Of a DNA stretch of 64,000 nt, positions 6,975 to 63,059 are shown piece by piece. Source of the stretch: Oscillospiraceae bacterium (GTDB lineage Bacteria > Bacillota > Clostridia > Oscillospirales > Oscillospiraceae); the NCBI GenBank assembly GCA_902779945.1, contig CACZDN010000013.1, positions 1 through 64,000 on the forward strand, written 5' to 3'. Positions within the stretch are counted from its first letter, which is position 1, and the number at the start of each line of letters is the position of its first letter. Made by a program: the position numbers and the translations under genes. The notes under the pieces were generated by a model. It saw only the letters and a program-made list of their open reading frames with translations. It made no database searches and was not told where the DNA came from.

Positions 6975-7140
6975 TAAGGCAACACCACACAATCCGCCAT
7001 CGGCGCCTCCTGGAAAAATAGTGCCCTGACTTCGAGCCTTTTTCTTGCAATACACAAAGTATTCCTGCGAAAAACCGCCATCGCCAGAACCCAATTTTTC
7101 TCAGGATTCGCTCTCGCCGAATTGTGCGGTGCTGCCCTAA
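6975..7140. repeat. TTAAGGCAACACC hairpin element, copy A (full length)
   Basis: Ends are TAAGGCAACACCACACAATC and its near-inverse GAATTGTGCGGTGCTGCCC. The centre is AATACACAAAGTATT, so the whole 166 bp can fold on itself. Its right end contains the stop codon of the neighbouring glucan synthase gene (TAG at 7139-7137). Confidence 0.85.
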
Positions 7141-10100
7141 CCGATCTCCTCGCCGTGATACGCTTCTCCGTCCACGGTGATCGCCCCGTCTTTGACCTCG
7201 ATCCCGTGCGCCCTTCCCTGAAAATCGGTCCAGCGGATCGTGCGGTCGCCGGGGAGGGCGTCGGGGCTTGCGCGGAGCCTGCCGTCCCGCAGGCGCAGGC
7301 CCAGAAGCCCCTCACAGGCGGCGCGGAAGTACCAGCCCGCGGAGCCCGTGTACCAGGTCCAGCCGGAGAGCCCCTCGCGCCCCTTCGCCGCGCACACGTC
7401 CGCCGGGAGGACAAAGGGCTCGGCCTCATAGCGGGCGGGATCGCCGTTTTCGGGCAGGAGCATCCGCAGAATCTCCCGTCCCTGCGTCTCGCGCCCGCGC
7501 CGCAGGCAGGCCAGGGCCAGCCAGACCGCCGCATGGGTGTACTGACCGCCGTTTTCCCGGAAGCCCTCGCCGTAGCCGCTGAGATAGCCGGGACTGTCGT
7601 CGGCGGGATAGGGAGGGGCGAGGAGCCTGACAAGTCCGTGCTCCCGGTCCACAAGACGGCGCAGCGCGCTGTCGAGGGCGAGCTCCACCTTTTCGGGGCT
7701 CGCCCAGGGGCAGAAGGCCGCCCAGCTCTGGGCCACGGAGTCGATGCGCTCCCCGTCCCCGAGAGCCGTGCCGTCCTCGCGAAAGGCGCGCAGATACCAG
7801 CGCCCGTTGAAGGCGGCGTCGGCGGCGCGGCCCAGCTGCTCGGACAGCGCCCGGTAGTGCCCCGCGCGCCGGTCGTCCAGCCGGTCCAGCAGCTCGGCGA
7901 AGCGCAGGGCGCAGCAGGAGAGAAACCAGCCCAGCCATACGCTCTCGCCGCCGGCGCGGTCGAGACCGTCGTTCCAGTCGCCGCTGCCCATGCGCGGCAG
8001 CCCGTGGGGCCCGAAGCCGCGCTCCTCGCACCGGGCGAAGGCGCGGACCGCGTGCTCGAGCACCGGGGCGCGCTCCTCGCTCACGCGCGGCGTCTCGTAG
8101 CGGCCGCGCTCGTCGGGGCGCAGCGGGGGCGAGCTGACAAACGGCAGCTCGAGCGAGCAGACAGACAGCTCACCCGTGGCCTCGGTGTATTCACACAGCG
8201 CCCAGGGGAGCCAGAGCAGGTCGTCCGAGCAGCGGGTGCGCACGCCCCGGTCGCCCTCCGGGTGCCGGTGCCACCAGTGCAGCACGTCGCCCTCCGCGTA
8301 CTGGTGGCGGCAGCAGTCGAAAAGCTGCGCGCGGCAGAGGGACGGGTCGACGAGCAGGAGGTTCGCGCTGTCCTGGAGCTGATCGCGAAAGCCGACGGCC
8401 CCGCCGCTCTGGTAAATGCTGCTGCGGGCGAGCAGGCGGCAGGCGCAGGTCTGATAGACGGCCCAGGTGTTCAGATAATGGCACAGCGCCCCGTCCGCGC
8501 ACTTCAGCGAGAAGCGGCCCAGAAGGCCGCTCCACCAGCCGCGCGTGTCCGCGAGCAGCGCCGCCGTGTCGCCGGCCGAAAGCGTCCGGCGCAGCGCGCC
8601 CTCATCGCAGCCGAGCAGGAGCGCCGTCTCCTCTCCCGCCTCGAGCTCAATGCGCAGCGCCGCCGGGCAGAAGCCGCTCTCAACCCGGAAGGGGACCGAC
8701 GCGGCGGCGAAAAGCTCCGCACCGGGCAGCCAGCTTCCCGCGTCCCGGAGGCGCAGTAGCCCTTCGCACTCCTCAATGTGAAGCCCCGCCGCATCATCCG
8801 TCCCGAGGGCGGGCGAGAGCTCCCAGACCAGCGTGAGGCCCGCCGCGCCGCGGACCTGGAGCACGCGCAGGTCGACGCCCATGGGGATGAAAAGCGTCGT
8901 CTCGATCTCTCGCCCGTCGAGCTCCGTGCGCCAGAGCGCGGCGCCGGGCGCATAGCTTACCGTGCATCGGTCCCCGCCGCCGGCAAAGAGACTGCGCGCC
9001 CTGCCGCCGAGAAGGACGCACAGGCTCTCCGCCGAGGAGACGGCGCGGATGTCCGCCGGCGGCGGCAGCAGGCGCATTTCCCGCGCGTTTCTGAGCCAGA
9101 GCCCCGCCGGGCCGAAGTCGGCGGCGAAGGCGGAGAGACTGCCGTTGGTGAGAATGTGCTGCCAGATGCGCGGACCCGGCGCGCCGTCCACGGTGTAGGA
9201 AAAGCGCTCGCCCTGCCAGAAATGCGCAGGGATCGCCGCAGAGCGCGCAAGCGGCCTGTACGCGCTCCGAAGCGGCGGGGGCAGGCGCTTTTCCTCGCCG
9301 ATGATGACCGCGGCACGGCTTTTGACCGTCTCCGCCGCCTCCGTCGGCGCGCAGAGGACGCCGCCCCGCGCCCCCAGCAGGGCCTCCAGCCCGAAGGCGG
9401 CAAGGCGGCTCTCGAGCTCGCGCAGGCGGGGACGCAGATACTCGCCCTGCTCGTCGGAGAGGCAGACCAGCTCCGAATCCAGCCCGCAGCATTTGAGCAG
9501 GCAGAAGGCGCGCAGCAGCCCCTCGCTCTCCGCCGCCCCGGCCGGGCAGCAGAGCAGGGGGTAATCGCCGGACACGCCCCAGCGCCAGAGCTCGCGCTTC
9601 GGGGCTGCGCCACGGAGGCGGTTTTCCCACAGCGGCAGGCAGAGGGCCATCGCCTGTCCCACCTCGTCCCCGCTCATGCCGAGGCGCTGGGCGGCGGCTC
9701 TGACCATGCTGCCCGCCGCGCCCGGGCCGTTTTCAAGGATGCGCCCTGCCGCGTCAAAGGCGGCGCGCGCATCCCGGCCGAGAGCGAGGGCGACGCGCAG
9801 CTCTGTTTTCCGGCCCTTTACGGTGCTGAGCGCGAAGCGGGCCGTGACCCGGGGGGACAGAAGCGGCCCGAGACCGCCGCGCTCGTCTGCGTCGAAGACA
9901 GCGGGCCGGTCCGCGGCGAGACAGAGCCACAGCTCCTCGCCTCCGGATTTGGAGAGACGCCGCAGCAAGAGCCGCCCGCCGCGCAGCTCCGCCGTCAGGC
10001 CGAGCTGCCAGTAGGCCCGGTGGCTCTCCCAGTCGCGCTCGGCGGCGAGGACGGGCGCAAAGCCCAGCGTGAGCGTGCGCGCGCGCGTCCCGTCATCGTC

Positions 10101-13100
10101 GAGCGCGATGAGCAGCGCCTCGCCGAGCTCGCCCTCCGCACTCTGGCGGGTGAGCGTGCAGCCGGGCATCAGAAAACGGCAGCGCTCCTCGGAAAACTCC
10201 CGGCGGGCGGGAGCGGCGACCGGCAGCAGCGCCTTCCCATCCAGGGCGAGGATGAGTCCGGAGTCGTCCCCCTCCGCGCGATAGACGCAGGTCTCGCCGA
10301 GATACGCGGCGCTCTCGCCCGTGTCGCGCACGCGCAGGCTGTAGGCCCCGTTGGAGAGCAGGCAGGCAATCGTGCTTTCGCCGCAGACGGCGCGTTCCTC
10401 CCAGGGGCGGCGGGCGCGCTTGTCGGGCCGCTCCGGCGCGGGCGCGCGGTCCCGGCGGATCACGGCGGCGGAGTCCGGCAGCTTCTCCTGCAGGAGCAGG
10501 GTGAAGGCGGACATCTCCGGTTCGCTCATGAACAGGGCCCGGACGCTGCCGTTGTCAACGGCGTTGACCGCGGCGAGGATGCTCATGCCCACATGGTGCG
10601 CCATCCAGCAGCGCACCTGTTCGCCGTCGGGTCTCGAGCAGCGGCCCGGGGTGAAGTCCAGCGCCTCGATATAGCCCCAGCGCCCCACGGCTCCCAACTC
10701 CCGCAGGCGCCTGAGATTGCGTGCGGCGGCGCAGGGCTCCACCACCAGAGCCAGAAAGCTCGCGTACGGGGCGACGACCAGGTCCTCCTCCTGCCCGCGC
10801 TTGAGGGCGAGAGCGGGACAGCCGTGGGCCTTGTAGCGGTAGCTGAGAGACGCGTCCAGCGCGTACCAGGCGCTCTCAGACACGCCCCAGGGCTTGCCGG
10901 GGAGCTTGCGCCGCTTCTGGGCGTAGACGCAGAAGCGCGCGCTCTCGTACAGCAGGCTCGAGCGGTAGAGCGGCAGAAACAGCATGGGCATGAGGTATTC
11001 GAACATCGTGCCCGTCCAGCTTGCCAGGCCCCGGTAGCCGTCCTTCTGAAGCTGGGCGCGGCTCAGACGCTTCCAGTGGCGCAGGGGGACCTGCCCGCGG
11101 GCGAGGGCGATATAGCTCGTGAGCATGGCCTCGCTCGCCATCAGATCGTACCAGCCGCCCGCGCCGCGCTCCTTCTCCGCGTCGTAGCAGATATAGAAGA
11201 GCTCGCGCCGATGGTCGAAGAGCGGGGCAAAATCCATCGCGTCCAGCAGGGCGCGCAGGCGCTTTTCGAGCGCGTCCTCACCCCAGACTCTCAGCGCGGC
11301 GCAGGTGGTGACGAGGCCCGCGCAGAGGTTGCCGCTGTCCACGGTGGACACAAAGCGCGGGCGCAGGGGGCGGAGGGTGCGCGTGTCGTACCAGTTGAAA
11401 AAGTGACCGCGGCAGCGCTCCATGCTCTCGAGAGCGGGCAGCATCCGGGCAATATAGCCCAGGGCCTCCTCCCGCGGGATGACGCCGGCGCTGCCCAGGG
11501 CTGCCGCCGAGGCGAGGGCGAGGCCGATGTTCGTCGGCGAGCTGCGGTGCGCCGTGCCGACGGGCGGCTGCTGCTGAAAGTTGTCCGGGGGGAGAAAGTG
11601 GTCCTCCTCGCCGGAGAGCTCACGGTAATAGCCCCAGCACTCGGTGAGACTGCGGTGCAGAAGATCGCTGTCGCGCACGGAGAGGGTTGCGCCGCCGGAG
11701 GCGGGCAGGGCCAGGGCCGCGGCCGCCGCGGGGGACAGCAGCCACATGAGTCCCGCCGCCTTGCCGGACGGCAGCGGCGCAAAGCCCATCAGCAGCACGC
11801 CCAGTACCACACAGGGCCACATGGCGCGCACATGCTCGCCCAGAGCGGCCCCGGCGCGCACCTCGGCGAAGGTGGTCCACTGCAGGAGCCGCCGGTGGCT
11901 GACAAGCATGCGCCAGAGGGCCGTAAGGATCGCCGTGAGGGAGACCCAGGCCTCAAAGGGCAGCAGCCACAGGCGCATGAAGCTGCGGACGATGGCCCCG
12001 CCGAGCCCCGTGAGCAGCCGCGTGTGCCGGCGCAGGCGCACGCGCCCGTCCTCGCGCCGCAACCCCGTCTCCGCGAGAGCGAGCAGGATGTCCTGCAGGA
12101 GCGTCAGAAGCGCCGCCCCGCCCGCAAGCTTCAGGCCTGACCGCGTGCAGCACAGGCCAAGCAGCATCGCGGTCAGCGTCAGCGGCGCGACAAGACTGCG
12201 GCGCAGACTGTCGAGCAGGCGAAAGCGCTCCATCACCGGCAGACTGCCCCTGAAGATCCAGGGGGCGTTCTGCCAGTCGCCGCGTATCCAGCGGTGCAGA
12301 CGCCTGAACCAGGCCAGGGGCCTCGCGGGGAAGGCATCGACCGCGGCGGCGTCGCTCATATACGCCCCGCGAAGAAAGGCGCCCTCCAGCGCGTCGTGGC
12401 TCAGCACGCGCCCCTGGGGCAGCGCCTCCCCGCAGCGCATCAGGTATTCAGCGTCCAGAATGCCCTTGCCGGAGAAGCCGCCGGAGCCAAAGGCGTCCAT
12501 GTAGAGCTCCGTGCTGAGTCCCCCGTAAGGGTCGCTGCCGCCGGGCCCGGCGAAGATCAGGGCAAAGTCGGTGGCACCGGCGCTCTCCAGCTCCGTCTCC
12601 ACGCGGGGGTGTATGACGGCGTGGCCGGAGACCGGAAAGCCGTCCGGCCCCGGCTGCGGGGCGTTCAGGGGATGGAGCATCGCGCCGATGAGACTGCCCG
12701 GCGTGCCGGGCTGGACACGGGTGTCCGCATCCAGGGAGATGATGAAGCGCGTGCCGCCGAGCGCCTCCCGGTCCCCCGTGACCTCGAGCGTGGACGGACG
12801 CCCGCACACGAGCTTTGCCAGCTCCGTCAGCGCGCCGCGCTTGCGCTCGAAGCCGCTGTAGACCTCGCCGTCGAAGCTGCGCGGGCGCAGGAAGAGATAG
12901 AAGCCGCCGCCGTATTTGCGGTTGAGGCTTTCCACATACTCTCTGGCCTCGCGGATGAGCGCCTCATCGCCGGGGGCGCTTCGCGTCTTCGCGGCGGGCA
13001 GATCGGCCAGAAGCCCGAAGCGCAGCTCCTTCCCCTCGTGGACGGAGGCAAGGCGCAGCTCCTCAAGGCGCTTCAGCTCCACGCAGCCCAGAAGCGCCGA

Positions 13101-14141
13101 CAGCACGCAGATCGTCCGCCCCTCCGGCGGCACGCCCGCGGAGAGATCGAGGCGCGGCAGGGGGCGCGGGCGCAGAAAGCGCAGCAGCAGAAAATCCAGA
13201 AAGCCCTTGCCGAGAGACCACAGCGGCACGAGCAGCAGAAGCGCGGACAGGGCGTCTCCCAGATACGCGAAGGCCCCGAGACAGCCGAACACGCACAGCG
13301 CGGCCAGCGCCGTTATATATGCCCGCGCGCGCAGCTCCCCGGGCGGGGCGAAGAGATAAAAGCCCACGTGCCGGCCCTCCGCCCGCGCCGTCTCCACCAG
13401 CTCCCGCGCAAGCTCCTGCTCCTCCATGTCCCGCTTTTGCGCCAGCTCCGCGAGGCGGCGCAGATAGTCCTCCCGCGTGCAGCGGTCCATGCGCGGAAAG
13501 CTGCCCTCCGCCTCGTCGGCGAGGATGGACCCCGGCACGTCGGACGCGTCCAGCACGCGCTCCATGTCCATCGTGGACAGCAGGATCAGCGAGCGGAAGA
13601 GCGCCCCCATGGACTCGGACAGCGTCTCCGGCCGGGCCGAGGCGGAGAGCGTTTCGCACAGATGGGCTATGCTCTCGAGGATCACCGCCCGCAGGGCCGT
13701 GGGAAAGAGCGTGAGCTCGCGCCTTTGCAGGACCGTGACGCGCTGAAAGCCCCGGAGAAAGATCACGCAGCGCTCCTCGCTCACGCTGCCGTTGCCGGCC
13801 TGCAGCAGCGCGCGGCAGAGCTCCGTCATGAGAAGCCTGCCGCGGCTGGCGCGCTGGCGCTCGCAGTCTCTCAGGGCGCGGCGGGCGGCGGGGTACTCGC
13901 GCTGGACGAGATAGAAGTTATCCAGCAGCCATTCGCAGGCCGCCGGGACGCGCGCGGCCCCCTCATAGCGCCGTCGCAGCAGGCGGTGGCAGCGCTCGGT
14001 CGCCTGAAAGCAGCGCCGCAGGCTCTGCGCCGCCGCGGCGCCGTCCAGCGTCCCGCCGGGCCGCAGCGTGTGGGCGCAGGAGACGGCGTATTCCGCAAGC
14101 TTGTCGTCCTCGATGTACGGGATCAGATTCATGCTGTCCAT
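7137..14141 (-). CDS. Cyclic beta-1,2-glucan synthase-like protein (GT84 + GH94)
   Basis: A 2334-residue giant enzyme of the NdvB/ChvB type. An N-terminal cytoplasmic part is followed by membrane segments (about 265-305). A GT84 glucosyltransferase domain has DADTRVQPG (about 470) and SHDALEG (about 580), then more membrane segments (about 650-780). The rest is a glycoamylase-like domain (TVDSGNLCAG, FEYLMPMLFLP) and a C-terminal GH94 phosphorylase-type domain with the acid residue in SGDWNDGLD (about 2055). Such proteins build, control the length of and cyclise beta-1,2-glucans. GGAGGAGAGACAC precedes ATG 14141; a longer frame upstream would cross the ylxM promoter. The stop codon lies in hairpin element A. 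In Firmicutes the true product is untested, so substrate is inferred. Confidence 0.87.
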   Translation of the reverse strand: MDSMNLIPYIEDDKLAEYAVSCAHTLRPGGTLDGAAAAQSLRRCFQATERCHRLLRRRYEGAARVPAACEWLLDNFYLVQREYPAARRALRDCERQRASRGRLLMTELCRALLQAGNGSVSEERCVIFLRGFQRVTVLQRRELTLFPTALRAVILESIAHLCETLSASARPETLSESMGALFRSLILLSTMDMERVLDASDVPGSILADEAEGSFPRMDRCTREDYLRRLAELAQKRDMEEQELARELVETARAEGRHVGFYLFAPPGELRARAYITALAALCVFGCLGAFAYLGDALSALLLLVPLWSLGKGFLDFLLLRFLRPRPLPRLDLSAGVPPEGRTICVLSALLGCVELKRLEELRLASVHEGKELRFGLLADLPAAKTRSAPGDEALIREAREYVESLNRKYGGGFYLFLRPRSFDGEVYSGFERKRGALTELAKLVCGRPSTLEVTGDREALGGTRFIISLDADTRVQPGTPGSLIGAMLHPLNAPQPGPDGFPVSGHAVIHPRVETELESAGATDFALIFAGPGGSDPYGGLSTELYMDAFGSGGFSGKGILDAEYLMRCGEALPQGRVLSHDALEGAFLRGAYMSDAAAVDAFPARPLAWFRRLHRWIRGDWQNAPWIFRGSLPVMERFRLLDSLRRSLVAPLTLTAMLLGLCCTRSGLKLAGGAALLTLLQDILLALAETGLRREDGRVRLRRHTRLLTGLGGAIVRSFMRLWLLPFEAWVSLTAILTALWRMLVSHRRLLQWTTFAEVRAGAALGEHVRAMWPCVVLGVLLMGFAPLPSGKAAGLMWLLSPAAAAALALPASGGATLSVRDSDLLHRSLTECWGYYRELSGEEDHFLPPDNFQQQPPVGTAHRSSPTNIGLALASAAALGSAGVIPREEALGYIARMLPALESMERCRGHFFNWYDTRTLRPLRPRFVSTVDSGNLCAGLVTTCAALRVWGEDALEKRLRALLDAMDFAPLFDHRRELFYICYDAEKERGAGGWYDLMASEAMLTSYIALARGQVPLRHWKRLSRAQLQKDGYRGLASWTGTMFEYLMPMLFLPLYRSSLLYESARFCVYAQKRRKLPGKPWGVSESAWYALDASLSYRYKAHGCPALALKRGQEEDLVVAPYASFLALVVEPCAAARNLRRLRELGAVGRWGYIEALDFTPGRCSRPDGEQVRCWMAHHVGMSILAAVNAVDNGSVRALFMSEPEMSAFTLLLQEKLPDSAAVIRRDRAPAPERPDKRARRPWEERAVCGESTIACLLSNGAYSLRVRDTGESAAYLGETCVYRAEGDDSGLILALDGKALLPVAAPARREFSEERCRFLMPGCTLTRQSAEGELGEALLIALDDDGTRARTLTLGFAPVLAAERDWESHRAYWQLGLTAELRGGRLLLRRLSKSGGEELWLCLAADRPAVFDADERGGLGPLLSPRVTARFALSTVKGRKTELRVALALGRDARAAFDAAGRILENGPGAAGSMVRAAAQRLGMSGDEVGQAMALCLPLWENRLRGAAPKRELWRWGVSGDYPLLCCPAGAAESEGLLRAFCLLKCCGLDSELVCLSDEQGEYLRPRLRELESRLAAFGLEALLGARGGVLCAPTEAAETVKSRAAVIIGEEKRLPPPLRSAYRPLARSAAIPAHFWQGERFSYTVDGAPGPRIWQHILTNGSLSAFAADFGPAGLWLRNAREMRLLPPPADIRAVSSAESLCVLLGGRARSLFAGGGDRCTVSYAPGAALWRTELDGREIETTLFIPMGVDLRVLQVRGAAGLTLVWELSPALGTDDAAGLHIEECEGLLRLRDAGSWLPGAELFAAASVPFRVESGFCPAALRIELEAGEETALLLGCDEGALRRTLSAGDTAALLADTRGWWSGLLGRFSLKCADGALCHYLNTWAVYQTCACRLLARSSIYQSGGAVGFRDQLQDSANLLLVDPSLCRAQLFDCCRHQYAEGDVLHWWHRHPEGDRGVRTRCSDDLLWLPWALCEYTEATGELSVCSLELPFVSSPPLRPDERGRYETPRVSEERAPVLEHAVRAFARCEERGFGPHGLPRMGSGDWNDGLDRAGGESVWLGWFLSCCALRFAELLDRLDDRRAGHYRALSEQLGRAADAAFNGRWYLRAFREDGTALGDGERIDSVAQSWAAFCPWASPEKVELALDSALRRLVDREHGLVRLLAPPYPADDSPGYLSGYGEGFRENGGQYTHAAVWLALACLRRGRETQGREILRMLLPENGDPARYEAEPFVLPADVCAAKGREGLSGWTWYTGSAGWYFRAACEGLLGLRLRDGRLRASPDALPGDRTIRWTDFQGRAHGIEVKDGAITVDGEAYHGEEIG

Positions 14142-14233
14142 GTGTCTCTCCTCCGATAAAACGCCCGCCGGGGCGTATTCACCATGCAGTTTTTCCCATT
14201 TGCGGCGGGATATGCGCTGACAAGAAAAAACAC

Positions 14234-14262
14234 TTGACAGGCAGAGCCCGGGCGTGTATACT
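14234..14262 (+). promoter_or_regulatory. Promoter of ylxM-ffh
   Basis: TTGACA (14234-14239) and TATACT (14257-14262) with a 17-bp spacer, 36 bp before the ylxM start. Confidence 0.88.
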
Positions 14263-14297
14263 CTGTTAAGCTTGAATGCTTGACAGGGGGAAGCGCC

Positions 14298-14654
14298 GTG
14301 GCAGTGGGCAGAAGGACACAGATCATGCTGCTGGATTTCTACGGCGAGCTTTTGACCGACAAGCAGCGAGAGTGCTGTGATCTGCATTACAACGAGGACC
14401 TGTCCCTCTCGGAGATCGCGGAGCAGCTGGGCATCTCGCGCCAGGGCGTGTGGGACAACATCCGCCGCGCGGAGAGCGCCATGCAGGACATCGAGGAGAA
14501 GACGGGGCTGATCCGCCGCTTCGAGGAGACCCGGCAGACGCTGAAAAAAATCGCCGCACAGGCGGAGGAGATCGAGGGACTGACCGAAGGCAGGCCGCAG
14601 GAGATCGCCCGCGGAATCAGGCGGGAGATCGACCGGATTGAGGAATGGGACTGA
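14298..14654 (+). CDS. ylxM: YlxM/p13-like sigma-region-4 DNA-binding protein
   Basis: A 118-residue protein with a sigma-70 region-4-like helix-turn-helix (DLSLSEIAEQLGISRQGVWD), followed by a long charged helical tail. YlxM is nearly always encoded directly upstream of ffh in Firmicutes and is thought to act with the signal recognition particle. The start is GTG at 14298 behind GGGGGAAGCGCC; an in-frame ATG at 14280 lies before this site and is less likely. Its stop is 3 bp from the ffh ATG, so the two are co-transcribed from the promoter at 14234. Confidence 0.92.
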   Translation: MAVGRRTQIMLLDFYGELLTDKQRECCDLHYNEDLSLSEIAEQLGISRQGVWDNIRRAESAMQDIEEKTGLIRRFEETRQTLKKIAAQAEEIEGLTEGRPQEIARGIRREIDRIEEWD

Positions 14655-16144: not shown

Positions 16145-16176
16145 AGAAACAAACATTAGTATGGAGGTGAATATAC

Positions 16177-16413
16177 ATGGTTAAGATCAGACTTCGCAGG
16201 ATGGGCGCCAAGAAGGCCCCCTACTACCGCATCATCGTCGCTGATTCCCGCAGCCCGCGCGACGGCCGCTTCATCGAGGAGCTGGGCGTTTACGACCCCA
16301 CGGCTGACGGCGAAAAGATCAAGGTCGATATGGAGCGCGCAAAGTACTGGATCGCGAACGGCGCTCAGCCCACCGATACAGTCCGCGGCCTGCTCAAGAA
16401 AGTTGAGGCCTAA
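16177..16413 (+). CDS. rpsP: 30S ribosomal protein S16
   Basis: A 78-residue protein starting [20 protein letters not shown] with the S16 continuation [20 protein letters not shown]. It is a small-subunit protein needed for 30S assembly. A good GGAGGTGAATATAC site precedes the ATG. In many Firmicutes the order is ffh-rpsP-khpA-rimM-trmD-rplS; here rpsP and khpA are present, but the rest does not follow. Confidence 0.97.
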
Positions 16414-16434
16414 TTTTAAGGAGTTCATGACCGC

Positions 16435-16665
16435 ATGAAAGAGCTTTTGACCTATATCGTACAGAGCCTGGTGGACAACCCTGACCAGGTCTCTGTGACC
16501 GAGCGCAAAGCCGACGGCGAGATCGTCTTTGAAGTCGACGTAGCCGACGGCGACAAGGGCAAGGTCATCGGCCGGCAGGGGAGGATCGTCAAGCAGATCC
16601 GCATCCTCATGCGGGCCGTCGCCCAGCGAAAGGGCAAAAAAGTATCCGTTGAGATCGTGGATTGA
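16435..16665 (+). CDS. khpA: KH-domain RNA-binding protein KhpA
   Basis: A 76-residue single KH-domain protein (YlqC/KhpA). The GXXG loop is IGRQGRIVKQIR (about residues 48-59). KhpA pairs with KhpB and binds RNA, affecting cell division and envelope homeostasis in other Firmicutes. It lies 21 bp behind rpsP, with AAGGAGTTCATGACCGC before the ATG. A hairpin element begins 2 bp after its stop codon, where rimM would be expected; the operon may have been cut short or rearranged here. Confidence 0.94.
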   Translation: MKELLTYIVQSLVDNPDQVSVTERKADGEIVFEVDVADGDKGKVIGRQGRIVKQIRILMRAVAQRKGKKVSVEIVD

Positions 16666-16667
16666 TC

Positions 16668-16834
16668 TTAAGGCAACACCGCACAATCCGCGTTCGGCGC
16701 CTCCCGGAAAATTCGCGCTCTGATTTTGTCACTTTTTTTTGAAATACACAAAGTATTCCTGCAAAAAAATGCCTTCATCAGAACCCAAATTTTCTCAGGA
16801 TTCGCTCTCGCCGAATTATGCGGTATTGCCTTAA
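16668..16834. repeat. TTAAGGCAACACC hairpin element, copy B (full length)
   Basis: The ends are TTAAGGCAACACCGCACAAT and ATTATGCGGTATTGCCTTAA, both closed by TTAA. The centre TTTTTTTGAAATAC-ACAAA-GTATTCCTGCAAAAAAA pairs, making one long imperfect hairpin. It starts 2 bp after khpA. Confidence 0.9.
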
Positions 16835-23083: not shown

Positions 23084-23112
23084 AGTATAACACATCGTGA
23101 AGAAAATAGCAA
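23084..23112 (-). promoter_or_regulatory. Promoter of rex
   Basis: TTGCTA (23112-23107) and TATACT (23089-23084) with a 17-bp spacer on the minus strand. The first bases of the -35 box coincide with the end of hairpin element C. Confidence 0.7.
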
Positions 23113-23273
23113 GGGCAATACCGCATCATGCGGCAAGAGCAGATCCCGAGAAAGAACAGGTTCTGATGAAGGCAGTTTTTCGCAGGAATAGTTTTCGTAT
23201 TGCAAAAAAAAGACAAAATCAGGGCGCAAATTATCCAGGAGGCGCCGAAGGCGAATTGTGCGGTGTTGCCTTA
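23111..23273. repeat. TTAAGGCAACACC hairpin element, copy C (inverted, full length)
   Basis: Begins AAGGGCAATACCGCATCATG and ends ATTGTGCGGTGTTGCCTTA, inverted relative to copies A and B. One end contains the stop codon of the anti-sigma gene (TAA at 23273-23271) and the other abuts the rex -35 box. Confidence 0.85.
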
Positions 23274-30600: not shown

Positions 30601-30993
30601 ATGAAAAAAAGGATCCCTGTTCTGCTCATCAGTCTTCTGTTCGCCGTCCTGTTTTCCGCCGGCGCGTTCGCTGAAACACCCGATCCGACAGCGAAAACGC
30701 CGCAGGATGCCCGGGTCGGTTGGGGCGTCTTCTCCCTTCCGGGAGAGCTCAGGCCGCAGAGTTCCGCACCATCCGGCAGAAGTGACCCGACAGAAAATCC
30801 GCCCGCACCATCAAGCGGCCGTTTCTCCCGGCCGGATACGATCCGGAACGATTATCCGGCTGCAAGCGACAAGAGCCCCGATGAAATCGAGCAGGAAATC
30901 ATGGAACGGTCTCTCGACAGCGGTCCTGTTCCCCTGATCAGCAATGTTCCGATCCCGTATATACCGATCACGGAAATCGATACGAATTACTAA
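30601..30993 (+). CDS. Small secreted proline-rich protein
   Basis: A 130-residue protein with a signal peptide (MKKRIPVLLISLLFAVLFSA, cleavage near AFAET). The mature part is low in complexity, rich in proline and serine (PSGRSDPTENPPAPSSGRFS), with a C-terminal VPIPYIPITEIDTNY. There is no anchor or recognisable domain. GGGGGGACAACTCC precedes the ATG. A TATAAT lies at 30560-30565 but lacks a clear -35 box. Its stop codon TAA is formed by the first bases of hairpin element D, so the original 3' end may have been altered by the insertion. Confidence 0.6.
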   Translation: MKKRIPVLLISLLFAVLFSAGAFAETPDPTAKTPQDARVGWGVFSLPGELRPQSSAPSGRSDPTENPPAPSSGRFSRPDTIRNDYPAASDKSPDEIEQEIMERSLDSGPVPLISNVPIPYIPITEIDTNY

Positions 30994-31099
30994 GGCAGCA
31001 CCGCATCATGCGGCGAGAGCGAATCCCGAGAAAAACCGGGCTCTGATGAAGGCGGTTTTTCCGGGAGACGCCGACGGCGGATTGTGCGGTGTTGCCCTT
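30991..31099. repeat. TTAAGGCAACACC hairpin element, copy D (internally deleted)
   Basis: Starts TAAGGCAGCACCGCATCATG and ends GGATTGTGCGGTGTTGCCC, same orientation as copy C but only 109 bp; the central AATACACAAAGTATT part is missing. Its first three bases are the stop codon of the secreted protein gene. Confidence 0.82.
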
Positions 31100-31252: not shown

Positions 31253-31336
31253 AGGGCAGCGCCGCATTATGCGGTATTGCCCAAGAAAAAACGACAAAAC
31301 CAGAGCGCAATTTTTCCGCGGATCGTGCGGTGCTGC
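31253..31336. repeat. TTAAGGCAACACC hairpin element, copy E (degenerate)
   Basis: AGGGCAGCGCCGCATTATGC at one end and GATCGTGCGGTGCTGC at the other, about 84 bp. It lies within the leader of the citrate operon and seems to be a rearranged or decayed copy. Confidence 0.7.
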
Positions 31337-45617: not shown

Positions 45618-45754
45618 ATAAAGGCAACACCGCACAATCCGCCATCGGCGCCTCCTGGAAAAATAGTGCCCTGACTTCGAGCCTTTTTCTTGCAATACAC
45701 AAAGTATTCCTGCGAAAAAGATTCGCTCTCGCCGAATTGTGCGGTGCTGCCTAA
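45618..45754. repeat. TTAAGGCAACACC hairpin element, copy F (internally deleted)
   Basis: Nearly identical to copy A over its first 95 bp and its last 35 bp, with the part between (CCGCCATC...CAGG) missing, 137 bp in all. It lies wholly in the 5' leader of the CNNM pair. Confidence 0.87.
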
Positions 45755-45766
45755 AAAGTAACCTGT

Positions 45767-45856: not shown

Positions 45857-46030
45857 AATCCAGACATTACGTATATGAAGGACAGCGGAGTCTATGGAAA
45901 GTATGGTTTGGATCGGCTGTACCCCTGTAAGGTGCTGTGTCCCTGAACGGAAACTCAATATCGTCATATGGGTTTCCTGCAGAGAAGAGACGAGCTGTCA
46001 GCGGCAGACACAGGCATTGCGGGCATGGCG

Positions 46031-46067
46031 GGAAGCGCCGATGGCGGATTGTGCGGTGTTGCCTTAA
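46031..46067. repeat. TTAAGGCAACACC hairpin element, fragment G
   Basis: One end of the element only (GGAAGCGCCGATGGCGGATT then GTGCGGTGTTGCCTTAA), 35 bp upstream of the GtrA start. Confidence 0.72.
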
Positions 46068-47964: not shown

Positions 47965-47995
47965 CAAAGTATTCCTGCGAAAAACTGCCATCGCC
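47965..47995. repeat. TTAAGGCAACACC hairpin element, fragment H
   Basis: CAAAGTATTCCTGCGAAAAA then CTGCCATCGCC matches the apex and one inner arm of copy A. It lies 13 bp after the glycosyltransferase stop. Confidence 0.65.
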
Positions 47996-49359: not shown

Positions 49360-49478
49360 TTAAGGCAACACCGCACAATCCGCCTGCGGCATCTCCTGGA
49401 AAATTTGCGCCCTGATTTCGAGCCTTTTTCTTGAGGTACACAAAGTACATCTGCGAAAATTATGCGGTATTGCCTTAA
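49360..49478. repeat. TTAAGGCAACACC hairpin element, copy I (internally deleted)
   Basis: Both ends are complete and closed by TTAA (TTAAGGCAACACCGCACAAT and ATTATGCGGTATTGCCTTAA), but the arm between the apex and the right end is missing, 119 bp in all. Confidence 0.87.
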
Positions 49479-55367: not shown

Positions 55368-55521
55368 CCTGCATTCCCTCCCTCATCATTACAAAAAAGT
55401 GGAGAGCGGCCCATACACGGGACCACTTCATCTGTTTTATTGTCAGGGAAAAAGGGCGGATATAAGAGCCCCTTGTGCCGCGGGCTGTACTTGCCTGCTC
55501 TTTCCCAAAATTTATGAATAT

Positions 55522-55550
55522 ACTATATCACAGAGGCCCCAAGATTTCAA
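55522..55550 (-). promoter_or_regulatory. Promoter of the surface operon
   Basis: TTGAAA (55550-55545) and TATAGT (55527-55522) with a 17-bp spacer on the minus strand; the leader is about 150 nt. Confidence 0.72.
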
Positions 55551-55579
55551 GAATAGATAACCTAAAATGATGCATATTC

Positions 55580-55631
55580 ATTGATGATGGGCTTGAATGC
55601 CGGGGATTGATGATGGGCTTGAATGCCGGGG
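55580..55631. repeat. Two tandem copies of a 26-bp unit
   Basis: The unit ATTGATGATGGGCTTGAATG plus CCGGGG is repeated exactly at 55580-55605 and 55606-55631. It lies between the two divergent promoters. Two copies only. Confidence 0.75.
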
Positions 55632-55637
55632 ATGCGC

Positions 55638-55666
55638 TTGCATATTTGTGAAAGGCATGATAAAAT
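55638..55666 (+). promoter_or_regulatory. Promoter of the two membrane protein genes
   Basis: TTGCAT (55638-55643) and TAAAAT (55661-55666) with a 17-bp spacer, 78 bp before the first start codon. Confidence 0.62.
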
Positions 55667-55743
55667 TATCTCGACAACTCGGTTTTTAACAGACTTGGCC
55701 TCCGGTACCGAAACGACGGCAAAGAGAGGAGACGATACGCATA

Positions 55744-56388: not shown

Positions 56389-56393
56389 GGCAA

Positions 56394-57371: not shown

Positions 57372-57582
57372 TTCCCTCCGCCCGATTGCGGAGGGAGGAA
57401 GCATGACTGCCTGACCTTCACAGCTGCCCGCAGCAGTCATGATCGCAAGCAATCTGCGCAGCCATGCACAAGCTCATAACAGCACCGACAGGGGCTGTCT
57501 CAAAATACAGCCCCTGAAGAAAGAGCAAAATAACGGCAGCCGTCCCTTGAAAAAGGGGCGGCTGTCGGCTTAATATTAGGTT

Positions 57583-57897
57583 GTGAAGCACAATACAAAG
57601 CAGGTAGATTATACTCTGCGCTTTGCCAGACAGAGAGAAACGATGGAAGAACGCATCAGCACTTACGAAGGAAAGCTGATCCGAGTGAATCGCAGCATCC
57701 AGGCAGAGGGGGTTTTTGCTATGACCAAGGAAGACATGGGCTTCCGCAGAGTTCTTCTGCGCAGCGCGGTCAAGGTTGAGGTGGAATGGACTTTGCTCAG
57801 CCTGGCATACAACATCCTCAAGCTCCATCATAAGATTCAAAAGCAGCGCTTGGGAACGGGCCTTGTGATTCCTAAGAGCTTTCCGGCAGGGCTGTAG
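57583..57897 (+). pseudogene. IS1182-family transposase, C-terminal fragment
   Basis: The frame reads ETMEERISTYEGKLIRVNRS, IQAEGVFAMTKEDMGFRRVL and VEVEWTLLSLAYNILKLHHK, then a stop. This is the last third of DDE transposases of the IS1182 group (normally about 450 residues), including the R-S-I-Q-A-E-G-V-F segment with the catalytic glutamate. The front part with the catalytic aspartates is missing, so it cannot act. Confidence 0.82.
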
Positions 57898-57923
57898 ATT
57901 ACAAGGCAACTGAATATGGAAAA

Positions 57924-57972
57924 ACCATCCGGGAGCGCTGCTTATTTGTGGCACTCTCCGGATGGTTTTGCA
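57924..57972 (+). terminator. Terminator of the transposase remnant
   Basis: AAACCATCCGGGAG pairs with CTCTCCGGATGGTTT, followed by TGCAC; it lies just after the transposase stop inside the IS ends. Confidence 0.7.
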
Positions 57973-58143
57973 CATTTTGGCCTTGATGAGGTCAATATGC
58001 TATGCCTTTTTCAACATACTATGACTAATTAGAGAGACGTTGCCTCTCAATAGCTCCTTTTGCTATTTTGAGACAACGCCTGTGTCCTGTGTATCCAGAT
58101 TCACTTGCCGATCAACGGACCTGTTTTCCGCTGCCAGGCCGTA

Positions 58144-58716
58144 TTACAGGTAGCGGACGATATCCTCTGTCTCGTATTTCGGCACATAGTAATCGCCGTT
58201 GGAATCACGCCAGTAGTTCTTCTGTCCGTCCTTGAGCGGCACCACCGTGCTGCGGTGCGCCGGATAGCCGAAAGCGATGCCGGTGTGCACCTGCAGATTC
58301 TCGGGCAGACCCAGAAACTCCGCCGTCTTCGAGCGGTGAAGGGTGCCGATAATGCAGCTGCCAACACCATGGGCCCAGGCCGCCGTGGTCATGCTCGCCA
58401 CCGCGATGCCCACATCCATATCACTGTGGCCGGGGACCGAGCTGTCCTGCAAAACCACGATGTACAGGGTAGGGCGCTGCTCCGGCTTCGGGGTTCCGGC
58501 CCCGTTCGGAATGGCGGCCGCCCATTTGGTCAGCTCGCAAAGCGCCCCCACATCCTCCGGCTTCTGCGCCACGACAAAGCGCAGGCTCTGTCTGTTTGCG
58601 CCGCAGTTTGCAAGCCGTCCGGCCTCCAGAATGTCCTGAACGACCTCCCGGGGCACCGGCTCTTGGGTGAAGGCCCGGAATGTGCGCCTCGTGCGCAGAA
58701 CCTCCATCATATCCAT
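58144..58716 (-). CDS. Nitroreductase family protein
   Basis: A 190-residue FMN-dependent oxidoreductase fold protein starting MDMMEVLRTRRTFRAFTQEP. Flavin-site features include RTRRTFR and GRLANCGANRQSLRFVV at the front, and MTTAAWAHGVGSCIIGTLHR with IAFGYPAHR near the end. The natural substrate is unknown. GGGAGGTAAGGAT precedes the ATG. It is the last gene of the TRAP operon, 18 bp after dctQ, so it may act on the imported acid or on stress linked to it. Confidence 0.88.
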   Translation of the reverse strand: MDMMEVLRTRRTFRAFTQEPVPREVVQDILEAGRLANCGANRQSLRFVVAQKPEDVGALCELTKWAAAIPNGAGTPKPEQRPTLYIVVLQDSSVPGHSDMDVGIAVASMTTAAWAHGVGSCIIGTLHRSKTAEFLGLPENLQVHTGIAFGYPAHRSTVVPLKDGQKNYWRDSNGDYYVPKYETEDIVRYL

Positions 58717-58734
58717 ATCCTTACCTCCCGTTTC

Positions 58735-59226
58735 TCAGTTCTTGCCGCTGCGCAGCTCTTTGAACGCGACGACGATGTCGCGGATGCTGTAGATAAAGAG
58801 CAGCAGACCGCCGATGACGATGCTGGCGTAGGGCACCTGGCGCGGCGCGCGCAGGATGATGGTCGGGGCCTGAGCCTTGCTGAACAGCTCCCACGCATAG
58901 TAGAAGAACACCGCAAAGAAGACTGCGTTGAAGATCGTGATGCAGAAATTCAGGATGCGGATGAATCTGGTGTCCTTGAATTTCTGCTGCAGAAGATCGA
59001 CCCGGAAGTGTGCGCCGTCGCGCATGATGAGGGCGCTCGTCAGAAAGATCATATATGCCATGCTCCACTCGACCACCTCGTCCGTCCAGGACAGGGAAAT
59101 GTTGATGGGCGTAAAGCGGATGATGACGCGGAACATCAGGATGATCGCAATGAGGGCCAGGCAGCAGACCACAATGATCTTCAACGCCTGCGCGACGATT
59201 TTGTCAAGCTTTTTCAGAAATTCCAT
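58735..59226 (-). CDS. dctQ: TRAP transporter small permease (DctQ)
   Basis: A 163-residue protein with four membrane helices and the DctQ hallmark pattern ISLSWTDEVVEWSMAYMIFL followed by SALIMRDGAHFRVDLL. It links the binding protein to the large permease in a sodium-driven uptake system for organic acids. Order here is dctP-dctM-dctQ; the more common order is P-Q-M. It follows dctM by 12 bp. Confidence 0.92.
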   Translation of the reverse strand: MEFLKKLDKIVAQALKIIVVCCLALIAIILMFRVIIRFTPINISLSWTDEVVEWSMAYMIFLTSALIMRDGAHFRVDLLQQKFKDTRFIRILNFCITIFNAVFFAVFFYYAWELFSKAQAPTIILRAPRQVPYASIVIGGLLLFIYSIRDIVVAFKELRSGKN

Positions 59227-59238
59227 GGCAGCCCCCTC

Positions 59239-60522
59239 TTAGACCAGTATGGACGGCAGCCATGTACACAGGGGAGGAATAAAGGTACACAGCAGCAGGA
59301 CGATAATAATACCGATTACGTAAGGTATGACTTCTTTTGACAGCTCCAGCATTGGCACATCTGTCACCGATGACACCGCGTACAAACTCATGCCCACCGG
59401 CGGCGTCAGCAGACCGATCATGGAGGCCAGAACCATGATCACGCCGAACTGAAGCTGGCTCATGCCCATCTGGGCAATGATCGGCAGAAAGATGGGGGCA
59501 ACGATCAGGATGACCGCTGTGCCCTCGAGGAACATGCCCAGCACAAGCAGGATGAAAATGATCATCAGGATGAGCGCGGTGGGGTTTGCGGTGATGGAGA
59601 GCATACCCTCAATGACCTGGTTCGGCACGCGCTGGTGCGTCATGAAGTAGGCCAGGAAGTTTGCGATCGCGATGATGAAGAGGGTCTTGCAGCTTGTGAC
59701 GATGCTGTCATACACGATCTTGAACAGGTCCTTGAACTTGACCTCGCGATACACGACGCAGCTTAAAAACAGGGCATAGAAGCAGGCGACAATGGAGGCC
59801 TCGGTGGCGGTGAACCAGCCGCTCCAGATGCCGCCGACGATAATGACGATGGTCATCAGGCTGGGGATAGCGTTGATGAAGTATTTCCAGCGGATGCTCC
59901 AGGGCATCCTGGGCTCGATGGGGTAGTGGTGCCTTACGCTGGTATAGTAGACCCACACGCCCATGGCCACGGCCATCATGAAACCGGGGATGAAGCCGGC
60001 CGCAAAGAGCTTGCTGACCGAAGCCTCAGTGGCGCAGCTGGAGTAAACGACAAAGGCGATGGAGGGCGGAATGACGGGGCCGATGGTCGAGGAGCCTGCG
60101 GTGATGCCGGCACTGAAACGGTGGGGGAAGCCGGCGTCGTCCATGGCCTTCATCTCGATCATGCCGAGACCCGCCGCGTCCGCGACAGCCGCGCCGGACA
60201 TACCGGAAAAGATGACGGAAGAGACGATGTTCACCTGACCCAGACCGCCGGGCCAGTGGCCGACCATGGCCTTGGCGAAGTTAAAGATACGGTCGGTGAT
60301 ACCGCCGGTATTCATGAGGTTGCCGGCGAGAATAAAAAACGGGATGGCCAGCATGGTGAAGCTGGTGGTTCCGTTGTAGATACGCTGTGCCATGACGGCC
60401 AGTATGTTGCCGTAGCCGAGGCCTGCGAACATGGCGGCTGCGGTGCCGCCCATGGCCGCACATACAGGCACGCCGAGAAGCATCAGCCCGATCAGCACAA
60501 CGCAGGTAATCAATGCAATCAT
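59239..60522 (-). CDS. dctM: TRAP transporter large permease (DctM)
   Basis: A 427-residue, about 12-helix transport protein. It has the family's GGTAAAMFAGLGYGNILAVM start, GMSGAAVADAAGLGMIEMKA, and IGPVIPPSIAFVVYSSCATE in the sodium-site region. It carries substrate in symport with sodium. It lies 119 bp behind dctP, the longest gap in the operon, with no terminator. Confidence 0.95.
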   Translation of the reverse strand: MIALITCVVLIGLMLLGVPVCAAMGGTAAAMFAGLGYGNILAVMAQRIYNGTTSFTMLAIPFFILAGNLMNTGGITDRIFNFAKAMVGHWPGGLGQVNIVSSVIFSGMSGAAVADAAGLGMIEMKAMDDAGFPHRFSAGITAGSSTIGPVIPPSIAFVVYSSCATEASVSKLFAAGFIPGFMMAVAMGVWVYYTSVRHHYPIEPRMPWSIRWKYFINAIPSLMTIVIIVGGIWSGWFTATEASIVACFYALFLSCVVYREVKFKDLFKIVYDSIVTSCKTLFIIAIANFLAYFMTHQRVPNQVIEGMLSITANPTALILMIIFILLVLGMFLEGTAVILIVAPIFLPIIAQMGMSQLQFGVIMVLASMIGLLTPPVGMSLYAVSSVTDVPMLELSKEVIPYVIGIIIVLLLCTFIPPLCTWLPSILV

Positions 60523-60641
60523 CAGACTATCTCCTTTTATAAAGACAGCATCCTCCTTAGCCCGCAGACGGGGATCCGAAAGATGCTGTCACAAGCTATG
60601 CTATTGCTGGATCACGTCACTGCCCAAGGGCGGGAGACGTT

Positions 60642-61664
60642 TTACTGACGAGCGTTTTCGACGATCTCCATCATGCGGTCAACCTGCTCCTGCGTCACGG
60701 CGCCGGTGGAAACCATCTTGTCGTACGCATACTGCATGTTCTCGCGGAATTCGTCGATGTTGACCTCGATGATCTGCATACCCTCGGCCGCCAGCTTCTC
60801 AAGATAGTCGGCCTCGGAATCCTGAACAGTCTGGCGCATGAAAGCGGAAGCCTCCGCGGAAGCCTTCTCGATGGCCTCACGCTGGGTGTCGCTCAGCTTC
60901 TCCCAGAGTCTGTTGTTGATGCAGAGGTTCATGGACTCCCACTCGTGTCTGGTGAGGGTGAGGTACTTCTGCTCGCACTCCCAGAGGGCGTTGTTGTAGA
61001 TGGTGGAGATGGGGTTTTCCTGGCCGTCAACGGTCTTCTGCTTGAGGGCGGGGATCAGCTCGCTGAAAGCGACCTGCTGGACGTTTGCACCCAGAGCTTC
61101 CATGCAGAAGATGAGCTGCTGCTCGGACGGGGTACGGATGAGCAGACCCTTGATCTGATCGGGGTGCTCAACGGGAACCTTGGAGTTGGTGAGGCTGCGG
61201 AAGCCATACTCCCAGCTGCCGACGTCGTGGATGCCCTTGGACTCGAGCGTGCCGTCGTTGACCCAGTCCTTGAACTCACCGTCAACCACGCGGTAGGCGT
61301 GGGCGTAGTCGTCGTACAGGTAAGGCATGGCGACGAGGTGGTAGCGGCTGTCGTACTCGCCCAGGGTGGCCTCGCAGATCAGGCAGGCGTCGATGGCGCC
61401 GATGGAAACCTGCTCCGCCATCTCGGGGGCGTTGCCGAACTCGGAGTTGTTGTGCACCTCGACGGTGATGGTGCCGCCGGAGTACTCGTTCGCCAGCTCG
61501 GCGAACTTCAGGGAAGCCGCCTGGCCGGGCTCGCCGTTGGCGTTGAAGTTGCCCAGACGGATGGTCACGGGCTTGTCATCGGCGAAGGCAAAGGCCTGGC
61601 CGCAGCCAAGGATCAGCGTGCAGACCAGCGCAAATGCAAGGATTGCGGAAAGTGTTCTTTTCAT
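60642..61664 (-). CDS. dctP: TRAP transporter solute-binding protein (DctP)
   Basis: A 340-residue exported protein. The signal sequence (MKRTLSAILAFALVCTLILG) ends in L-I-L-G-C, a lipobox, so it is probably a lipoprotein; cleavage near AFADD is an alternative. The mature part has the family's IRLGNFNANGEPGQAASLKF and GLLIRTPSEQ with the arginine that binds the substrate carboxylate. The ligand cannot be read from the sequence. AGGAGGAACACGC precedes the ATG. It leads the operon with a near-perfect promoter and a palindrome next to it. Confidence 0.94.
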   Translation of the reverse strand: MKRTLSAILAFALVCTLILGCGQAFAFADDKPVTIRLGNFNANGEPGQAASLKFAELANEYSGGTITVEVHNNSEFGNAPEMAEQVSIGAIDACLICEATLGEYDSRYHLVAMPYLYDDYAHAYRVVDGEFKDWVNDGTLESKGIHDVGSWEYGFRSLTNSKVPVEHPDQIKGLLIRTPSEQQLIFCMEALGANVQQVAFSELIPALKQKTVDGQENPISTIYNNALWECEQKYLTLTRHEWESMNLCINNRLWEKLSDTQREAIEKASAEASAFMRQTVQDSEADYLEKLAAEGMQIIEVNIDEFRENMQYAYDKMVSTGAVTQEQVDRMMEIVENARQ

Positions 61665-61724
61665 GCGTGTTCCTCCTGTAAATCATTTTTGGGTATCCCA
61701 TCCAACCGGGATAATACTGGAAAA

Positions 61725-61753
61725 AGTATAGCCTTGCACAGGACATTTGTCAA
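61725..61753 (-). promoter_or_regulatory. Promoter of the TRAP operon
   Basis: TTGACA (61753-61748) and TATACT (61730-61725) with a 17-bp spacer on the minus strand. Confidence 0.85.
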
Positions 61754-61771
61754 TGTTCCAATCTGGACATT
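61752..61771. promoter_or_regulatory. Palindrome at the TRAP promoter
   Basis: AATGTTCCA and TGGACATT form an imperfect palindrome that touches the -35 box, a good place for a regulator. No regulator gene is adjacent. Confidence 0.45.
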
Positions 61772-61892
61772 TTATAGGGGTTTTATGGGCATTTCACAAA
61801 ACGGGGTTTACATAACAACCAACAATACAAAAAAAGACTGCATTATTCACAGAGAGCGGAGAGGAAATACGTCCCGAAAAAACCCGCCGGCT

Positions 61893-62828
61893 TCAACAGA
61901 AGAGATACTGAAAAACGATCAGCATCACAGGCATCGTCAGGACACAGAGAGCCATACTGATTACACTGTATACACTTGTTTCATAGGCTTTGTTATTATA
62001 CAGAACCGCAAGCTGCGATATGGTGGACGCCGTCGGTGTGCACAAAGCAATGAAGCAGACCTGAAACACCGGGATCAGCGACGGATTTCCATTGAAGATG
62101 CCCGTACCCAGAAACAGGAGCAGCAGGCTCACAGGCATAGCGATCAGTCTCCCAAATGTGATGGCATATGCCCTCCCGTTTGTAAAGACCTTTCTCAGAT
62201 CATTTCCGGTGATAACCATGCCGATCACCAGCATGGAGCAGGGACCGACCATACTCCCCAGGCTATCCATCGCAGTATAAAGCACATCCGGAAGCCTGAT
62301 TCGGAGAGATGTCAGGAAGAGTCCCGCGGTCATTGCGAGCACATTCGGATTGAGTATGATTTTTTTGAAGTGAAGACGCTTTTCGCCGCTGATGACGCTG
62401 TCCCCGTGCGTCCAGATAAATGCGTTGAAGGGCACCTGCAGCGCGCTTGCGTAAAAAACATATTCACTGCCCATGATCATGTTGATGAGCGGCAGGGCAA
62501 GGTTGCCGACATTGCTGTAAATCATGCTGCACTGGTCAATTGCGTCCAGCTTCAGCGGTTTTTTCAGGATTTCCAACGACAAGATCCAAATCGTGTATGT
62601 ACCGAAGCCCAGTGCGAGCGCACAAAGAAAACCGTGTAATCTCTCCGGCGTCAAGTCGATCTGAAATGACCGACAGATCAGGCAGGGCTGGAGGATATAC
62701 ACGATCAGTCTGGACAGCGTTTTGCTGTCGTTGCTCTCGATTACACGGAATTTAACGGCCCCAAATCCGACAATGACCATGAGCATCATGGCGGCCAGCT
62801 TGCTCATCAGTATAAGCCCAGGATTCAT
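61893..62828 (-). CDS. AEC family transporter (auxin efflux carrier-like)
   Basis: A 311-residue membrane protein with about ten helices. Family features include GFGAVKFRVIESNDSKTLSR and LIVYILQPCLICRSF at the start, an IYSNVGNLALPLI segment, and TPTASTISQLAVLYNNKAYE near the end. Bacterial members export or import organic acids such as malate. AGAGAGGGAGAGCAG precedes the ATG. It has its own promoter, separate from the TRAP operon, but the neighbouring acid transporters could serve one pathway. Confidence 0.9.
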   Translation of the reverse strand: MNPGLILMSKLAAMMLMVIVGFGAVKFRVIESNDSKTLSRLIVYILQPCLICRSFQIDLTPERLHGFLCALALGFGTYTIWILSLEILKKPLKLDAIDQCSMIYSNVGNLALPLINMIMGSEYVFYASALQVPFNAFIWTHGDSVISGEKRLHFKKIILNPNVLAMTAGLFLTSLRIRLPDVLYTAMDSLGSMVGPCSMLVIGMVITGNDLRKVFTNGRAYAITFGRLIAMPVSLLLLFLGTGIFNGNPSLIPVFQVCFIALCTPTASTISQLAVLYNNKAYETSVYSVISMALCVLTMPVMLIVFQYLFC

Positions 62829-62867
62829 CTGCTCTCCCTCTCTGTCTTCCGCTTGTTAACGCGACCT

Positions 62868-62896
62868 ATCATAAGTTGAACCGTATCCGATGTCAA
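62868..62896 (-). promoter_or_regulatory. Promoter of the AEC transporter gene
   Basis: TTGACA (62896-62891) and TATGAT (62873-62868) with a 17-bp spacer on the minus strand. The first TT of the -35 box is the end of hairpin element J. Confidence 0.8.
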
Positions 62897-63059
62897 GGGC
62901 AACACCGCACAATCCGCCTTCGGCATCTCCTGGAGAATTTGCGCTCTGATTTCGTCACTTTTCCTTGAGGTACACAAAGTACATCTGCAAAAAAGTGCCT
63001 TTATCAGAACCCAAATGTTCTCAGGATCTGCTCTTGCCGAATTATGCGGTATTGCCCAA
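62895..63059. repeat. TTAAGGCAACACC hairpin element, copy J (full length)
   Basis: AAGGGCAACACCGCACAATC at one end, ATTATGCGGTATTGCCC at the other, and TACACAAAGTACATC at the apex. One end abuts the AEC -35 box and the other the broken gene at 63063-63392. Confidence 0.87.

Follow-up and report, generated by a model that had tools for sequence, protein, structure and literature searches.

The repeat copies scattered over the 64,000-nucleotide stretch of DNA analysed here (the window) are non-autonomous DNA transposons (MITEs) that are in all likelihood moved in trans by transposases of the IS5 family; both the label and the proposed mode of movement follow from the finding that IS5-family insertion sequences (ISs) of the same genus have the same ends and obey the same target rule. 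Sequence comparison across related genomes further shows that the core of these elements is kept while the type of their ends changes. We consider it very probable that such IS5-moved MITEs carry a core that is selected for itself as a folded single strand.

All ten places that a sequence-only reading of the window had assigned to the family proved to be real, since each of them matches the copy at 16668-16834 in blastn comparisons. Four are near full length (6975-7140, 16668-16834, 23111-23273, and 62895-63059), three are fragments (31260-31336, 46029-46067, and 47965-47992, the last one being a weak match with an E value of 5e-5), and the proposal that the copies at 30991, 45618, and 49360 are internal deletions was borne out by matches at 30991-31096, 45621-45755, and 49360-49478 (Table 1). 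A covariance model of the inner domain finds seven of the ten places. The best copy (16668-16834) possesses the centre AATACACAAAGTATT and the full-length hairpin that had been described for it, and the element indeed lacks a transposase because its 159 bp leave no room for one. Open reading frames touch some copies in the window: the stop codon of a 2416-aa frame (7137-14387, minus strand) lies within the target duplication of copy 6978-7136, and a 176-aa frame without a Pfam match (16156-16686, minus strand) begins inside copy 16672-16830, so that its start may come from the element.

Table 1. Repeat elements and element parts in the window.
Feature	Position	Strand	Remarks
Near-full element	6978..7136	+	Target duplication CTAA at 6974-6977 and 7137-7140
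Full 159-bp element	16672..16830	+	Target duplication TTAA at 16668-16671 and 16831-16834
24-bp core of the best copy: apical hairpin and flanking GCA / AA internal loop	16739..16762	- (better-folding strand)	Unchanged in other genomes
Near-full element	23114..23270	-	Flanks CTAA / CTTG; duplication imperfect (2 of 4)
Internal-deletion form	30994..31096	-	blastn, end-pattern search, covariance model
Rearranged element fragments, mixed orientation	31260..31336	.	blastn
Internal-deletion form, right arm short by about 30 bp	45623..45751	+	blastn, end-pattern search, covariance model
Left-end fragment	46029..46063	-	blastn, end-pattern search
Weak core-only match, 28 bp	47965..47992	+	E 5e-5, without a model match; may be chance
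Internal-deletion form	49364..49474	+	blastn, end-pattern search, covariance model
Near-full element	62898..63056	+	Target duplication CAAG at 62894-62897 and 63057-63060

Similarity between aligned copies ends at the borders of a 159-bp element, GGCAACACCG...CGGTGTTGCC, whose termini are short inverted repeats complementary to each other. The next four bases vary among copies and tend to agree across the two sides of one copy. The earlier description of the ends as closed by TTAA therefore had to be revised: TTAA is a common target duplication that lies outside of the element, and the flanking words vary (TTAA, CTAA, TTAG, CTAT, CAAA, ATAG, and others) and are duplicated. In a first set of copies, whose ends were placed by the terminal motif alone (three of 44 copies without both ends were left out), a perfect 4-bp duplication was present in 25 of 41 (permutation mean 4.5, maximum 12 among 20,000 permutations). 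When this set was extended by 40 more stretches, 44 of 66 near-full copies carried a perfect duplication (permutation mean 7.7, maximum 17 among 10,000). An earlier duplication count over core matches (15 of 135 left out at contig edges), for which the duplication itself had helped to place the ends, does not enter this evidence. The duplicated words (TTAA, CTAA, TTAG, TTAT, TAAA, and similar ones) approximate YTAR; among the 41 copies of the first set, the commonest letters at the four positions are Y, T, A, and A/G, with exceptions. Eight of the 44 perfect duplications overlap a coding stop. A preference for insertion at stop codons was considered and rejected, since 7.7% of the YTAR sites per strand (about 15% on both strands) end a coding frame, so that no enrichment is evident.

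The whole-genome search proposed on the basis of the window revealed many further copies. In the source genome, an assembly of 2.87 Mb in 39 contigs that is 85.8% complete, the end pattern has 379 matches at no more than two mismatches, and the reversed pattern has none. As both ends of one copy can match and fragments are counted as well, these matches probably correspond to roughly 200 to 300 copies. In the first DNA search, the best 40 of 288 candidates were scored and all were strong. A second end type, GGAANCGCT, coexists with the main one in the same genome (L052 near 1868-1892, G000:C27).

Relatives without the element were found when empty and filled sites were compared at two loci, and the copies hence do not sit at identical places in all relatives. 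On contig G000:C5, near 224.9 kb, an element lies between two tandem genes at a TTAA overlapping the first gene's stop codon; the same two genes are 15-21 bp apart (stop to start) in G093, G075, G096, and G110, with no element between them. The corresponding locus contains other DNA in G078, and in G094 and G080 the spacing is too short for an element. At window locus 6978-7136, the covariance model finds no element in any of the seven relatives whose fetched stretch covers both flanks; compared with the window, their spacing is 143-396 bp shorter in six and equal in G110, base-exact junctions being unreadable here because the spacer has diverged. In G094, this locus yields a cut match at a contig end. 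At the level of these two loci, the family thus displays what is expected of MITEs, namely many copies, sites that differ among relatives, and empty sites.

A full-length IS with the same ends and the same target rule, as the sequence-only reading had suggested looking for, is present in the same genus, although none was found in the source genome. Partner ISs were located by searching for the termini of the element itself. Among the 102 genus genomes, 14 have a relative of the transposase of genome G012; all 14 carry one or more matching termini next to it, and both ends are on one contig in seven. Ends of the GGCAAYACCG type enclose the transposases in G012, G050, G071, G046, G091, and G072, and GGAAACRCTGA ends (the GGAAACRCTG type) enclose that in G015. 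The ISs are about 1.1-1.8 kb long. Among the six with readable flanks, perfect duplications were found in four (G050, G071, G046, and G015), and three of four letters agree in G012 and G091. The G012 and G015 transposases belong to the IS5 family (NF033581, PF01609) and are 46% identical to each other. Termini common to the repeats and to an autonomous element, a further property expected of MITEs, are hence provided by the IS5-family elements of the genus. The end pattern itself is present in 40 of the 102 genus genomes, and across the genus the matches per genome range from 0 to 264. Collectively, the target duplications, the empty sites, and the genus ISs with the same ends give good support to the initial proposal of a MITE-like family that is probably mobilised in trans. 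Since neither a DDE_5 (PF13546), nor a DDE_Tnp_1, nor a G012-type transposase was found in the source genome (85.8% complete), the mobiliser is deduced from the relatives. IS701, suggested as a mobiliser by the YTAR rule, was discarded, with DDE_5 (PF13546) giving zero matches in the source genome. Matches to RNA families were observed in G012: group II intron matches (RF02005 and RF00029) lie in its IS5 element, where they separate the left end from the conserved transposase part (L191 496-1093, G012:C59), and an S10-Clostridia ribosomal leader (RF03136) lies near an element (L065 1636-1717).

The 24-bp centre is unchanged in at least 112 stretches of other genomes, and the 80 matches listed for it come from uncultured Clostridia or Bacillota, mostly Oscillospiraceae. 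The arms and ends around the unchanged centre differ and still pair in most of the cases shown. The covariance model that had been called for was built from the inner approximately 110 positions and defines a superfamily present in many related genomes: with at most 12 candidates scored per genome, it matches at least 93 of the 295 genomes sampled from the order, representing at least 51 of 149 genera, and at least six of 299 genomes in a phylum-wide sample, four of them outside of the order. In an alignment of 41 elements (41 of 45 representatives were used), 42 of 50 pairs show double changes. Among 56 distinct rows, double changes are seen in 31 of 32 pairs, and 94.5% of the cells are paired; the rows were aligned by fitting them to the model, an approach that leans towards the model structure and permits G.U pairs. 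Its covariation score is 0.741, compared with 0.179 for shuffled alignments (none of 500 reached the observed value) and 0.107-0.167 for slid ones. Two internal loops are conserved: GCA faces AA beneath the apical stem, and AAGGC faces a purine-rich AAC-G stretch further out. Over 46 members, six of which are secondary or weak matches and among these L253 read on the wrong strand, some loop columns are 72-96% conserved and others much less. Rfam gave no match at any element (the window at the gathering score; five loci at E<=0.5). In phage and plasmid collections, the window copy had no match and a second subtype none in phages; the 24-mer matches one viral contig.

One of the two strands folds better than the other. 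For the best copy (16668-16834), the minus strand reaches -89.1 kcal/mol (z -12.5) and the plus strand -52.3 kcal/mol (z -6.0). In all 28 non-redundant elements, the better fold is that of the complement of the printed strand (mean -78 vs -56 kcal/mol), and with DNA parameters the same strand is the more stable one in 27 of 28. Inner domains of the 40 non-redundant primary matches are likewise all better on one strand, with 85 G.U and 12 A.C cells. When near-copies are included, this holds for 51 of 52; the exception, L253, which had been left out of the 40-member set as a near-copy, is slightly better on the other strand (-38.0 vs -40.1). In the arms, where G.U and A.C were scored symmetrically, the better strand has 115 G.U and 46 A.C, and its mismatches are purine-purine in 215 cases vs 19 (Y.Y 215 and R.R 19 on the plus strand); these counts come from 23 elements (24 of the 28 representatives were of fitting length, and one of these without the core motif was removed). 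As the members are related, none of the strand counts represents independent events. Rare transitions in 66 copies from the source genome show no strand bias (C>T 1.20% vs G>A 1.05%, P 0.77; T>C 0.94% vs A>G 0.67%, P 0.40). Unequal numbers are found for the rare transversions A>T and T>A (14 vs 4 in the 66 copies); neither of these makes G.U or A.C. A covarying structure on one strand, one of the features expected of a functional RNA, is hence present in the core. The sequence-only reading had mentioned a repeat RNA as the other option, and the fold kept on one strand in many lineages gives this idea some ground; it is not an idle one.

The ends behave differently from the core. On a core tree of 53 elements, which remained of 105 typed ones after removal of near-copies, untyped elements, and odd lengths, 15 or more changes of end type are required; the least possible number is 5, and shuffled labels give 28.4. 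Some of the end types lie no more than a few bases apart, and many of the 15 changes may therefore reflect stepwise drift instead of exchange. GGCAAYACC, the most distinct large class, is separated from the rest by three changes, at least two of which are forced by well supported branches, and the sister pairs L068/L127 and L098/L145 differ in end type (support 99 and 98). In the best pair of GGCAAYACC- and GTAAAC-ended elements, identity is 92% in the interior and 56% in the ends. One lineage, genome G390, has 3-bp TNA duplications (TTA, TAA, TCA, TGA) in all 11 fetched copies, which are 161 bp long and nearly identical. A TNA target rule belongs to other IS5 subgroups, and the G390 duplications fit it. 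No pair of ends at IS spacing was found in G390; its close end matches are 14 pairs 161 bp apart and three degenerate single ends. The elements of this genome (L276-L286) have GAACC ends and an apical stem altered to CGGGC-TTTCG-CCCG, and they look like a recent burst.

Copies are intergenic: three of 107 in the source genome overlap a called gene, as judged with a home-made gene caller. Their orientation relative to neighbouring genes is even in this genome (25 sense, 23 antisense), so that no role in host mRNA is indicated. An orientation bias in an earlier mixed set of 157 (28 sense, 47 antisense, P 0.037) vanished when more copies from the source genome were added and was dropped.

Much of the paired appearance could in principle arise in an ordinary MITE with a neutral interior. 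Template switching between the arms converts imperfect palindromes into perfect ones and would produce double changes in the arms, and since a single transposase reads both ends, linked changes are expected in the terminal pairs. Such correction, however, should be strand-symmetric, yet G.U exceeds A.C by 85 to 12 in the inner domains and by 115 to 46 in the arms; it would erase mismatches, yet these persist with one polarity (215 vs 19). Conservation over the 46 members reaches 72-96% in a number of loop columns and is much lower in others, and the rare transitions in the copies lack a strand bias. We therefore regard a purely neutral interior as unlikely. A repeat used by the host as a regulatory RNA, be it a terminator, an mRNA stabiliser, or an RNase site, and kept for the benefit of the host would account for the intergenic position of the copies (three of 107 overlap a called gene), and precedents exist in the descriptions of CREE/NEMIS and ERIC as elements that act on mRNA (PMC2649163, PMC10969869). 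The even orientation in the source genome (25 vs 23), the sites that differ between species, and the 0 to 264 end matches per genome within one genus nevertheless make host benefit quite improbable. That the elements arose simply by internal deletion of an IS5 element is still less likely. The ends do match those of the genus IS5 elements, but only the outer 15-18 bp or so are common to both by eye, and the core model finds no match at E<=1 in the 11 loci carrying the ISs, from which we conclude that these MITEs are not plain deletions of the genus ISs.

What remains is the reading in which IS5-moved MITEs carry a core selected as a folded single strand. An IS5-family transposase, known to us from relatives, would have bound the termini and moved the elements, with insertion into a YTAR-type 4-bp target that is duplicated on both sides; the core would be selected for itself, working as a folded single strand, either as an RNA transcript or as single-stranded DNA, and the folded core may help the element to spread or to be tolerated. 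In the DNA version of this reading, the hairpin would extrude on one strand, for example during replication, and join both ends for the transposase. The same strand is the more stable one with DNA parameters in 27 of 28 elements, and the whole element is one hairpin that pairs its two ends; on the other hand, G.T pairs are expected to gain little stability in DNA, and a pairing of the ends alone would need no conserved internal loops. We see single-stranded DNA as a serious possibility, though not as the one we would favour. A bolder view, which we put forward with considerable doubt, is that of a new mobile class of structured RNA, whose transcribed purine-rich strand with two non-canonical loops would aid its own spread, could for example bind the transposase or a host factor, and might have ridden different Bacillota IS5 transposases by changing only its ends.

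Several known systems resemble the present family in part, and the comparisons refer to their published outlines. Correia elements (CREE/NEMIS) of Neisseria are small, MITE-like elements with over 120 copies, inverted repeats, a conserved core, and a connection to RNase III (PMC2649163), and stem-loop transcripts are described for NEMIS (PMC2229807). Our elements share with them the small, MITE-like format, the inverted repeats, and the conserved core; in contrast to CREE, the core is common to an order and beyond and is combined with different end types, a distinction drawn from the published descriptions. RUP of Streptococcus pneumoniae is a tightly folded 107-bp repeat with ends like those of the resident IS630-Spn1 (PMC3049150). 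The likeness lies in the folded repeat and in ends that resemble those of an IS; however, the partner proposed for RUP is an IS630 element, whereas here it is IS5, with a 4-bp (in one lineage 3-bp) duplication and a core that outlives the end type. REP/REPIN sequences are small palindromic mobile repeats with many copies per genome (PMC3116915, PMC2817692), as are ours, but REPs are described as associated with tyrosine transposases (PMC2817692), whereas a DDE transposase of the IS5 type and target duplications are found here. IS5-family ISs, for which YTAR is given as the target motif (PMC10359306), share with our elements the termini of the genus representatives and the YTAR target; unlike these ISs, the element has no gene, and its core was not found in the ISs (11 loci). 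No description of the present family was found among the open-access papers listed, as judged by titles and the starts of abstracts and, for a survey of 92 stem-loop families, by abstract and outline (PMC2267715). According to these descriptions, MITE-like repeats with a partner IS (RUP), those in which a conserved core goes with effects at the RNA level (CREE), and REPINs are already known; the new point here is that a MITE keeps its structured core through changes of end type.

MITEs are often seen as leftovers in which the ends matter and the middle does not. Here, conservation lies in the middle, which persists across a bacterial order and outside of it through the turnover of the ends and shows the signs of a fold on one strand. 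Whether a non-coding element depends on a structured RNA or DNA for its spread thereby becomes directly testable. Hundreds of intergenic repeats in some Oscillospirales genomes are explained by this family as well, and they can be annotated with the model. Compound arrangements occur as well. At L029 2001-2274 (G000:C21), two copies form a composite with CTAA bracketing the whole; taken initially as a nested insertion that could serve as an empty site, it was set aside because the rest of the first copy is missing. Adjacent head-to-head matches to the model were observed at L287 1892-2109 and L289 1887-2113 (G270 and G245), as if some members were double hairpins.
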